A stretch of DNA of 62,220 nt from Parcubacteria group bacterium Greene0416_39 (lineage in GTDB: Bacteria; Patescibacteriota; Minisyncoccia; Minisyncoccales; UBA10102): positions 1-62,220 of the forward strand of contig VMEU01000006.1 of NCBI GenBank assembly GCA_007375675.1. Direction: 5' to 3'. This document shows positions 8,954 to 12,449 of this stretch, in pieces. The stretch's first letter is position 1. Each line of letters starts with the position of its first letter. The notes under the pieces are model-generated. The model was given only the letters and a program-made list of their open reading frames with translations, ran no database searches and was not told the DNA's origin. The translations under genes were made by a program, and so were the position numbers.

Positions 8954-9104
8954 CTCATCCTGCGAAACCTCGCAGGATAGGAGCCGACATATATAGGTTA
9001 TCGACTAACACCACACATTAGTGTGCAAATTTTACACACCAATAATGATCGACACTCAAAGAATGAAATGATCCACGCACAGCTTCCGCTACGCGTGCCT
9101 TGTT

Positions 9105-9947
9105 CATGTTTCTCCACGTCTTTCGACGGGCATGGACTATATCTTCATCCTGCATCTCTTTTGCAGGAGCCAACGTGTAGTCTCTACGGGGTCAAGAGTT
9201 TATATCGCAACGAAGGGTGGACAAATTTCCTGACAATGTTATTGAATTTTTCTTTCGATGCTTTCCCAAAATACAAACGGTATCCAGAATTATTCCACTG
9301 ATGCGTAGAATCCAATCCAAGGCTCTCCCTGAATATTTTCTGAACTACCTTAACTTGTTTGAGTGAAAGTCTCTGTACATTCAACAAAAGTCCATGATCT
9401 TTTCCATTTTGTCCTTTTAACTTTCCTCCATCATCCATAAACCAAACAGCTAACACAATGGGATGCCTTAAGAATATACCAAGATCTTTTGGTAGAATCT
9501 TTCTCCCACGTCTATAGAAAACTTTATGCCACCTTGTAAGCTCTGGGTGGCTTATGGTTCGAAATCTCCAAGAGCTTGTCTTTGCCTGGAATTTGGGTTT
9601 TGAGAAAACCCAGTTCTCAAAAACTTTATATTTCCACCATAAGTAAGCTTTCTGTCTCTCTCCATGTCCGATCTGAAGTCTCCAGTTTGTTTCCCATCCG
9701 TTGGGCAGCAAACACGCATCCCCCAATAAGGTTCCAAAAAGAACCCTCTCTTGGTATGGAGTGAACCGATTGAGATTTTCTCTAAAATCCCTAAGGGCTC
9801 TTGAATTTGTGTTAACTCTTCTTCCGACTTCCCTCGGTATTACCTTCATTCATTCATTTTATCACAAAATGAATAGGAGGGCTCCACCGATACAGTTAGA
9901 TTTTTCTACCCCTTCTCAAGGGTAGGTCGCAAAGTCCTCGTTGGACC
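9105..9947 (-). other. Group I intron near the 16S 3' end (about E. coli 1498)
   Basis: The 5' exon ends AAGTCGT and the 3' exon begins AACAAGG, restoring the conserved AAGTCGTAACAAGG, so the junction is U1498/A1499. The intron ends in G. The core contains GTATCGGTGGAGCCC, and the P7 strands are GTAGAGACTA and GATATAGTCC. The length is 843 nt with one endonuclease ORF. Confidence 0.86.
9184..9849 (-). CDS. LAGLIDADG homing endonuclease of the 16S intron near 1498
   Basis: The 221-aa protein has motifs LFGTLLGDACL (near residue 38) and LAVWFMDDGG (near residue 138). It is homologous in layout to the endonucleases of the two 23S introns, and all three share the block around the second motif (VWFMDDGG). 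The ORF begins shortly after the P3/P4 core and ends right at P7. Its 30-residue N-terminal extension is basic. The predicted role is homing into 16S at the mRNA-decoding helix 44/45 junction. Confidence 0.9.
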   Translation of the reverse strand: MKVIPREVGRRVNTNSRALRDFRENLNRFTPYQERVLFGTLLGDACLLPNGWETNWRLQIGHGERQKAYLWWKYKVFENWVFSKPKFQAKTSSWRFRTISHPELTRWHKVFYRRGRKILPKDLGIFLRHPIVLAVWFMDDGGKLKGQNGKDHGLLLNVQRLSLKQVKVVQKIFRESLGLDSTHQWNNSGYRLYFGKASKEKFNNIVRKFVHPSLRYKLLTP

Positions 9948-10032
9948 ACGACTTAGCCCCTCTCACCGAGCCCAGCTTATTTACCCTTGCGGGCACTTTC
10001 GGCTGTTCCCGGCTCGCTTGGCTTGACGGGCG

Positions 10033-10872
10033 AATATTTTCTACGAACTTAGAATTGACGTTCCCATCGCGCCTGCGGATTTCCCGCACGCGACGAGCTC
10101 TAGTGCATCTGCTGTTTTAAAGCATACAGATTTGCTAACCCTATTTTGGTCAAATGTTCTCCCTTCTTAATTCTTTTCATCAAATCGCAGAAAATTCTGA
10201 AGTCTTTCAGCTTAGATTTTAATCGCAATCGGTATCGCCTAAAGAAAGGAACGATAATTTTCTCCAAATCCTTTCTATTCGCTACCTCATAGCGATAGCA
10301 ATTCTGATGATTCTTTCGTTTATCCACTTGGAAGTAGACATTTCCACAGCGAAAGAACTCTTTAAGCTTATAGAGAATATCTTTATCCCTTTCAATAAGC
10401 TTAAGATAGAATCGAGGTTCAACTTTGACTCTTCTTTTTACTTGTGTTTGTATCTGAGGATTCTTCACGTACACCGTAAAGCTTCCTTCCCCATCTACAA
10501 GCCCAAGAATGTAATCAGGAGTTAACATAATTAGAGAAAGTCCTTCCCCTTGCGGGTACTATGACTTAGCTGACTTCTGACGCTGCGTAAGTTCATTATA
10601 TCTCACATCCTGTGAAATAACAACGTCAGATCTCCTCGGGTTACTCAGTACTCTATTCCAGGCATCCTAGATGGACTTTCATTCTAACCTTCCTCATCCT
10701 CACCGCCTGTAATGAGTCGGTCATCCATTGTTTTTCTAGGCTGTCTTTTGCCGCCAGGTCCTTCGCTTGCCATCTCGCGATGGCAAACTACCTTTTGGCT
10801 ACGTCCCGAAGGCGTACATCGGGAGTGCGGATTTGAACCGCACAGAATACTAAGCTGCCGAGCGCTTTTATT
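10033..10872 (-). other. Probable group II intron at the 16S decoding site (about E. coli 1399)
   Basis: The exon halves CTGCACTCAC and CGCCCGTC join to the universal 1391-1408 segment, so the insertion is near C1399/C1400. Unlike the other four introns it lacks the P7 pair GAGACT/ATAGTC. Near its 3' end a hairpin has a 9-bp lower stem (CTCGTCGCG/CGCGATGGG), a two-base bulge on the 3' side and a 5-bp upper stem (TGCGG/CCGCA) closed by GAAAT, the shape of domain V. Upstream of the ORF lies GTCAGAAGTCAGCTAAGTC, which I recall from bacterial group II introns. A clear GTGYG 5' end is missing, so the class is probable, not proven. Confidence 0.6.
10100..10528 (-). CDS. Single-motif LAGLIDADG endonuclease or maturase in the 16S intron near 1399
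   Basis: The 142-aa protein begins MLTPDYILGLVDGEGSF, one LAGLIDADG helix (YILGLVDGEGSF), followed by a fold with FYLKLIERDKDIL and a lysine/arginine-rich C-terminus. One motif means it should act as a homodimer; it belongs to a different LAGLIDADG family from the four two-motif proteins in this window. It occupies the position of domain IV in a presumed group II intron, where a reverse transcriptase is normally found; none is present here. It may serve in homing, in splicing, or both. Confidence 0.87.
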   Translation of the reverse strand: MLTPDYILGLVDGEGSFTVYVKNPQIQTQVKRRVKVEPRFYLKLIERDKDILYKLKEFFRCGNVYFQVDKRKNHQNCYRYEVANRKDLEKIIVPFFRRYRLRLKSKLKDFRIFCDLMKRIKKGEHLTKIGLANLYALKQQMH

Positions 10873-11342
10873 GTGAGTGCAGGACCCAGGAACATATTCC
10901 GCGCCACATGGCTGATTGGCGCGTACTAGCGATTCCGACTTCATGAGGTCGAGTTTCAGACCTCAATCCGAACTGAGGAATAGTTTAAGGGATTAGCTCC
11001 GCGTTGCCGCCTTGCAACCCTCTGTCTATTCCATTGTAACATGTGTGCCGCCCAGGATATCAAAGGGCCACGCTGACTTGGCGTCATCCCCGCCTTCCTC
11101 TTGGTTGTCCCAAGCAGTTCTCTGTGACACATAAAACACAGAGTAGGGGTTGCGCATGTTGCCCGATTTAACGGAGCGCCTCAAGGTACATGCTGACGAC
11201 AGCCGTGCAGCACCTGGACTAATGTCCTTGTGGGTGGCCCCGACTTTCGTCGGGGTTTCATTAGTCTGTCAAACCCTGGTAAGGTTCTTCGGTTGTTGAC
11301 GAATTAAGCCACATGTTCCACCGCTTGTGTGGGTCCCCGCCT

Positions 11343-11470: not shown

Positions 11471-12449
11471 CATCTTGTAGAATTTTTACTATCCGTGTTG
11501 CCACGGAGATCGGACTATATCACTTTCTGAAATCGCTTATACCTTGATTTTTTCTCTGCAAGATATTTTTCTATCACGTCACGAGAAAACGATGTTTTCT
11601 CGACGACTTCAGAAATCCAGCGTTCTTGTAATTGGGAATCTTTGTAAAGAAGAATAACTTTGGGTAGTATACTTGCCACTGGAACATACGGTAGAATGAT
11701 GCGTAAGAACTTTTTGAGTTCTTCGCTCGAACGGATCCATAATCGGTAATACTCACGCTTTGTCCCGTCACGCTCTCGAACAATCTTCGCAATCGCGACT
11801 TTAACTTTCCAGACCTTCTGCAGGTACTGTGCTAAAATCTTTTGGTCTTCGAGCAGAAACGGGTCCGTGCAAAACACTCCGCGTTTTCCATTACCAATCA
11901 ACGAACCATCATCAAGCCACCACACCGCCAACGAAAGCGGTGTCAGCTGGTTAAGCCATTTTCGCTTAATGACTAAGCGATTATGCTTATGGGTCAGCTG
12001 GTATAATTCACTAAGTTGCTCTAGTGCTAGGCTCTGATATCGCAACATTTCTCCACCATAGCCATTCGGTTCTTGCTTCCACCAGCATTTTTCTCCGGAA
12101 ATCTCTTTCAACTGTTCAACTTTCCAGAAGAAATAATCCTGTTGGAGAACCGAGTGACGAAAAGAAAAACGTGCGTTCTTGTAGGGTTTTTGGATCCTTA
12201 AAGATCCGTCACCAAGCAAAGAACCCAGCATAACTTCTTTACATCGATCCGACAAAAATGAATGCTTTGTATTCATTTTCTATCTTCTTACTTACATAGT
12301 CTCTACGGGGTCAATACCTCTATCGAGGCTGACTTCCCTCGGGATTGTCCGTTCGACTGAACGGAGTTCCCCGATATAGCTAGATGCGCACTCCGATGTT
12401 GCCACCGAAGGGGACACCATTCGTCTCGTTTCATACGAGACAAGGATTT
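11471..12449 (-). other. Group I intron in the 16S 790 loop (about E. coli 793)
   Basis: The 5' exon ends GGATTAGAT and the 3' exon begins ACCCTTGTAGTCC. Joining restores the conserved 785-806 segment with the junction at 793/794. The intron ends in G. P7 is formed by GTAGAGACTA and GATATAGTCC. Unlike the other group I introns, its core (TATCGGGGAACTCC ... GAGGGAAGTCAGCC) lies entirely 5' of the ORF, and the ORF sits inside the P8-side loop. The length is 979 nt. Confidence 0.86.
11515..12276 (-). CDS. LAGLIDADG homing endonuclease of the 16S intron near 793
   Basis: The 253-aa protein has motifs VMLGSLLGDGSLRI (near residue 15) and LSLAVWWLDDGSL (near residue 115). Between them are WKVEQLKEISG and similar blocks of the two-motif family. 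It is the longest of the five and carries an extra basic C-terminal region (YLAEKKSRYKRFQ). It starts 25 bases after the first P7 strand, so translation does not run through the ribozyme core. It is likely to be active, with acidic residues in both motifs. Confidence 0.9.
   Translation of the reverse strand: MNTKHSFLSDRCKEVMLGSLLGDGSLRIQKPYKNARFSFRHSVLQQDYFFWKVEQLKEISGEKCWWKQEPNGYGGEMLRYQSLALEQLSELYQLTHKHNRLVIKRKWLNQLTPLSLAVWWLDDGSLIGNGKRGVFCTDPFLLEDQKILAQYLQKVWKVKVAIAKIVRERDGTKREYYRLWIRSSEELKKFLRIILPYVPVASILPKVILLYKDSQLQERWISEVVEKTSFSRDVIEKYLAEKKSRYKRFQKVI

Follow-up and report, generated by a model that had tools for sequence, protein, structure and literature searches.

Group II-like introns near position 1400 of the 16S rRNA gene were catalogued in CPR bacteria in 2024 as insertion site 16IS9 (Tsurumaki et al. 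2024, PMC11270868). Like the intron described here (the window intron, the window being the whole 62,220-nt stretch of DNA analyzed), they are inserted at about 1400, have a group II-like RNA and no reverse transcriptase (RT), and carry a LAGLIDADG ORF in 39 of 53 cases. Unlike in the present analysis, one position is given for the site and the text contains no EBS or lariat analysis (PMC11270868). A sliding register, delta/EBS1 covariation and an altered catalytic triple are absent from that description. In a 2026 survey of 753 LHE-bearing group II-like introns, bacteria are represented only by the rns-1396 introns of Thiotrichaceae (Liu 2026, PMC13190283). These introns resemble the window intron in being IIC-like, with a 5' terminal linker and a single-motif LAGLIDADG ORF in domain IV; they come from four gammaproteobacterial genera only, lie at 1396 and not at 1399, and are set beside the window intron by description, not by alignment (PMC13190283). 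According to the original prediction, fungal mitochondria and giant sulfur bacteria are the main known sources of LAGLIDADG group II introns; this omits the CPR survey of 2024. Salman 2012 is reportedly also a source for the rns-1396 IIC-LHE introns of Thiotrichaceae. Shifted 5' splice sites have been described in mitochondrial rRNA introns and in the Clostridium tetani intron C.te.I1, which self-splices by hydrolysis (PMC4424553, PMC3919590). In C.te.I1 and the mitochondrial IIB1 introns that have LAGLIDADG ORFs and 5' insertions, the 5' splice site is upstream of GUGYG, IBS1-EBS1 is altered, splicing is hydrolytic and EBS2 is lost. Their backbones and sites differ from those of the window intron (IIB1 backbone in the mitochondrial introns, a protein gene as the site of C.te.I1) (PMC4424553, PMC3919590).

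Since LHE-bearing group II-like inserts at CPR 16S position 1400 were already catalogued in 2024, the window intron can be assigned, by its sequence, to the known 16IS9 kind. It is 840 nt long (10033–10872, minus strand) and is found inside the single 16S rRNA gene of a small, 517-kb patescibacterial (CPR) genome. Running from 13230 on the minus strand, the gene is split by several inserts. The window intron is inserted between C1399 and C1400 (E. coli numbering), within the 1396–1400 stretch typical of 16IS9 and rns-1396 introns. The 5' exon (..CCUGCACUCAC; last ten bases at 10873–10882, minus strand) stops at 10873 with C1399, and its IBS1 is CUCAC (10873–10877). The 3' exon (CGCCCGUCA; first bases at 10020–10032, minus strand) starts at 10032 with C1400, and the SSU model picks up directly after the insert (9946–10030). 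Joining the exons gives TGCACTCAC^CGCCCGTCA. Within the same order, 26 of 60 genomes have the uninterrupted site TGTACTCACCGCCCGTCA, which together with the exon ends confirms the interval given in the original prediction to the base. The 3' end of the 16S gene (9050–9110, minus strand) reads ..GUGGAUCAUUUCAUUC, in which no copy of the anti-Shine-Dalgarno sequence CCUCC is visible. Four more LAGLIDADG ORFs, all of the LAGLIDADG_2 type, are found at 9184–9849, 11515–12276, 1403–2083 and 2313–2951; they lie in 16S inserts and at the 3' part of the 23S region. Weak group I matches were obtained for three of the inserts that carry them.

The original prediction described a group II-like intron lacking the group I P7 pair, and pointed to Infernal searches with the Rfam D1D4 and domain V models. 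D1D4-3 (RF02001) matched at 10784–10644 (E 0.046) and D1D4-1 (RF01998) at 10607–10540 (E 0.008, or 3.5e-4 in a whole-genome search), both below the gathering score. The D1D4-1 match is the segment noted earlier before the ORF (GTCAGAAGTCAGC). The domain V model gave no match to the window intron. Both D1D4 models lie on the correct strand and in the expected order on the minus strand (D1D4-3, D1D4-1, ORF, 3' hairpin). No P7 or G-binding core was found: the group I model (RF00028) has no match in 10033–10872 even at E<=10. Across the phylum, D1D4-1 matches were found in 22 of 379 genomes, flanked by 16S exons near E. coli positions 1396–1400 in 21 of them and at 1403 in the remaining one (L017). 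With all 22 matches in 16S near 1396–1403, the weak score reflects a real family and not chance. A covarying multi-domain fold, ending in a domain V with a two-nucleotide bulge, agrees with the two models in assigning the group II class.

The consensus fold and alignment were built from 45 relatives in the register of the window intron (437 aligned core columns). Of the 99 pairs in the 5' half (domains I–III), 81 occur in at least two Watson-Crick types, and the fold also contains domains V and VI. All features lie on the minus strand. Domain I spans approximately 10635–10862 and contains the RF02001 match. Domain II (approximately 10576–10630) is followed by J2/3 AGC (10569–10571), which is invariant in 45 of 45 relatives. 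Domain III (10539–10568) has a CAUAGUA..GAAGG motif and is supported by the RF01998 match and the consensus fold. Domain V (10063–10097) was located by the consensus fold, pattern searches and folding of the region. Domain VI with the 3' splice site occupies 10033–10059. The 3' hairpin has a 10-bp lower stem including a U.G pair, a 2-nt AG bulge on the 3' side, a 4-bp upper stem and a GAAAU loop; its fold has a z-score of -2.76 and is conserved with covariation in the 45 relatives. The domain V geometry proposed earlier is right as to the two-base 3' bulge and needs correction in two places, the lower stem being 10 bp and not 9, and the loop having 5 nt, or three (AAA) when closed by a G.U pair, in place of a plain GAAA tetraloop. 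In six relatives (L047, L057, L062, L069, L078 and L093), insertions of about 50 to 110 nt, some with hairpins, are found in the domain V 3' strand at the triad pairs, an unusual location within a catalytic helix.

The intron starts with AAUAA-AAGCGC and ends with AUAUU, in place of 5' GUGYG and 3' AY; the absence of GTGYG had been noticed before. The first five bases form a 5' terminal linker (10868–10872), and relatives align as exon followed by AATAA-AAGCGCCCGGCAG. The linker is followed by the IIC-like 5' consensus AAGCGCUCGGCAG (10855–10867), which is near-invariant among relatives and replaces GUGYG. The missing GUGYG thus reflects the linker in front of AAGCGC, and a 5' linker has been reported for the rns-1396 family (PMC13190283). 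A true 5' end at a GTGCG about 30–40 nt inside the intron (near 10835) was ruled out: relatives align AAGCGC at nt 6–11 with the IIC-like 5' consensus. In the consensus fold of the 45 relatives, the 3' strand of domain VI shows no conserved bulged branch A. At the branch position part of the family, the window intron included, has a mismatch of C and A or some other non-pair. The linker, the lack of GUGYG and the lack of a conserved branch A make a hydrolytic first step likely. Branching may nevertheless occur, since in domain VI of the window intron an unpaired A faces C.

The guide loop GGUGAG is located at 10699–10704 (minus strand). Its first base, the delta G (10704), pairs with C1400, and EBS1 GUGAG (10699–10703) pairs with IBS1 CUCAC (1395–1399). 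In relatives the loop re-registers with the insertion site: UGUAC at 1396, UGAGU or UGUGU at 1398, GUGAG at 1399, GGUGG at 1400 and GGCGGU at 1403. The register table leaves out rows with CGTCA inside the intron (low bound exceeding high bound by more than 1), and the window intron was placed by its own sequence. Delta and base 1400 form G-C in 44 introns and A-U in six, a count for which three loops with a wrong GUGAG in the automatic table were re-read by eye from the printed loops. In 1400-register introns the base at the delta position is C, facing G1401. The re-registering and the delta covariation fix both splice sites and show an insertion point that moves within a 7-nt stretch. Both properties appear to be additions to what was known of the family. 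In L044, L046, L051, L061, L147 and L149, U apparently replaces the otherwise conserved C at 16S position 1400, and the A at delta matches it.

An intact ORF in domain IV (10100–10528, minus strand) encodes a 142-aa LAGLIDADG_1 homing endonuclease with the single motif LVDGEGSF (PF00961, E 5e-18). It is close to I-OnuI/I-PanMI-type enzymes of known structure; I-PanMI is the best PDB relative (E 2e-30). Identity reaches about 73% to proteins from 80 named loci, which are from Patescibacteria nearly throughout. The original prediction of a LAGLIDADG ORF with no RT holds: the intron has no RT ORF, and no group II maturase domain was found above cut-off in 286 Patescibacteria genomes, including that of the window. 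RT help in trans is therefore unlikely. Introns of the same family, with LAGLIDADG ORFs and register 1400, are also found in archaeal 16S genes of Nanoarchaeota/Woesearchaeota contigs (L085, L089 and L092; RF01959, 894–1093 bits). These DPANN members are an addition to the known range. L080 goes under the label Amesbacteria, but its rRNA is archaeal and it has probably been misbinned.

Group II introns and their U2/U6 counterpart have the triad-bulge triple at the core of the active site, and the third triad base is regarded as nearly invariant. In the crystal structure of the Oceanobacillus iheyensis IIC intron, C377 joins the triad in a triple helix and pairs with C360. G383 is the partner of C360. 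Relatives of the window intron with CGC match this intron position for position (CGC triad, AC bulge, J2/3 AGC). The window intron has G*U-A where O. iheyensis has C377*C360-G383. Its triad is C-G-U (10093–10095, minus strand; the third base U at 10093) and its bulge A-G (10073–10074; the second base G at 10073), in place of an AGC/CGC triad and AY bulge. The partner of the third triad base is A (10067). Most of the family has CGC, with G as partner and C or U in the bulge. Most members read CUCGC-NNNN-U-GCGG-GAAAN-CCGC-NY-G-NNNN-GUGGG in domain V, and the window intron reads CUCGU-CGCG-U-GCGG-GAAAU-CCGC-AG-G-CGCG-AUGGG. An AGC triad at the GAGC before the domain V stem was ruled out; it has no pairing partner, and relatives place the C-G-C/U triad inside the stem.

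About 100 relatives were gathered. Among 79 distinct members, 61 have C-G, all with C or U in the bulge, and 18 (the window intron and 17 other distinct relatives) have U-A, all with G in the bulge. Within the class, a pattern search of 383 genomes that fixed the pair as Y..R and left the bulge free gave 30 matches (14 U-A/G and 16 C-G/Y). With all three positions free, a search of 379 genomes of the phylum gave 11 matches (1 U-A/G and 10 C-G/Y). No intermediate (C-A, U-G or C-G with a G bulge) was found in the 79 members or in either search. In the alignment of 45 relatives, complete switching with the state is confined to 3 of the 437 columns: those of the third triad base (C360 in O. iheyensis), of its partner (G383) and of the second bulge base (C377). 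Fisher p is 1e-11 for each column, a statistic that ignores phylogenetic non-independence. No RT-encoding group II introns of the phylum were found above the maturase cut-off in the 286 genomes, so viral contigs served as the domain V control. In these contigs the canonical AGC/AC pattern gave 63 matches, 49 with paired stems, and the equivalent AGU/AG pattern gave 7, none with paired stems. In the O. iheyensis intron, the C377G mutation alone makes step one about ten times slower and severely impairs step two. Since C377G by itself is crippling and the U-A/G set occurs whole, nature seems to hold a compensated form of this mutation. No U-A/G variant was recorded in the literature searched, the coverage of which is incomplete. 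We consider it likely that a natural group II lineage has rewired its catalytic triplex from C377*C360-G383 to G*U-A as a unit while keeping catalysis, in a family whose guide also slides from 1396 to 1403. The earlier suggestion of a possibly divergent class is right in part: the family had already been described (16IS9/rns-1396-like), but the domain V of the window intron falls in a subset with an altered catalytic triple, a feature that the original prediction missed. The group II class given there is upheld, and the window intron is ordinary in kind and unusual in its active site.

In a tree of domains I–III the U-A members need seven changes and a single clade is rejected (AU p 5e-5); in the endonuclease tree the U-A state needs six. 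An independent-pairs sign test found two triple-switch pairs on strongly supported branches and is underpowered. Near-identical domain Vs occur in different domain I clades, which suggests that domain V moves by recombination (block exchange). With two pairs only on strong branches and with domain V exchange, the number of independent origins of the U-A/G triple is uncertain, and none is claimed here. L036 has a C-G/C domain V, in comparison with L040 and L053, yet its endonuclease falls inside the U-A group (96/88). This mismatch suggests exchange of domain V between introns.

The window intron is very probably a group II-type ribozyme with an IIC-like domain V, of the CPR 16IS9/rns-1396 lineage, that would remove itself from the 16S precursor and be mobile as DNA through its LAGLIDADG endonuclease. 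GGUGAG in domain I would pair with CUCAC (1395–1399) and C1400 and so mark both splice sites. Domain V would supply the active site, in which G*U-A has replaced Y*C-G as the base triple. The first splicing step would probably be hydrolytic and release a linear intron, and self-splicing would join ..CACUCAC to CGCCCGUC. For mobility, the endonuclease is predicted to cut intronless 16S alleles at 1399/1400, and repair would copy the intron in. The triad CGU in place of AGC/CGC and the 3' end ..AUAUU in place of AY count against this reading.

The same non-canonical triad and 3' end, with the non-canonical 5' end and the lack of a group II maturase in the genome, would fit a group II intron that has decayed and lost splicing, with the LAGLIDADG gene persisting as a selfish cutter and the 16S rRNA functioning in pieces or with the insert left in place. 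We consider this improbable, as the insert breaks a single-copy 16S gene at the decoding center, and throughout the phylum covariation maintains the helices, guide loop and splice-site pairings. The window copy by itself might be degenerate, but 17 other distinct relatives have the same triple. A group I intron missed by the models is barely credible; other introns of the same operon do give weak group I matches and carry LAGLIDADG ORFs, but RF00028 has no match in the interval though these neighbors match, and the consensus fold has group II anatomy. Somewhat less improbable than decay, and still unlikely, is an ordinary CPR 16IS9 group II-LHE intron whose U-A/G triple arose by neutral drift or as one inherited accident with no functional coupling. 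It would agree with the introns of the same kind already described at 16S position 1400 in CPR, with the restriction of the U-A type to one part of the family, and with LHE and domain V appearing to be exchanged as blocks. Drift does not readily account for the missing intermediates, for a third position that is the base completing the triple in the crystal structure and not a helix neighbor, or for U-A members that do not form one clade on domains I–III. The sequences show the position of the intron, its domain anatomy with covariation, the covariation of guide and exon and of the triple, an intact ORF and no RT ORF; from these, self-splicing, hydrolysis, homing and a function of the altered triple are inferred.

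The kind of intron was already known, and three things are added to it here: an altered triple, a guide register that slides, and members in archaea. The re-registering guide would give an RT-less intron a route to shift its exact insertion point while presumably still splicing. A repeated natural swap of three bases would be phylogenetic support for the triad-bulge triple. The U-A/G set raises the immediate question of whether C360U/G383A rescues the C377G mutant. If the rewired triplex is true, there is more than one solution for the active site that group II introns and the spliceosome share.
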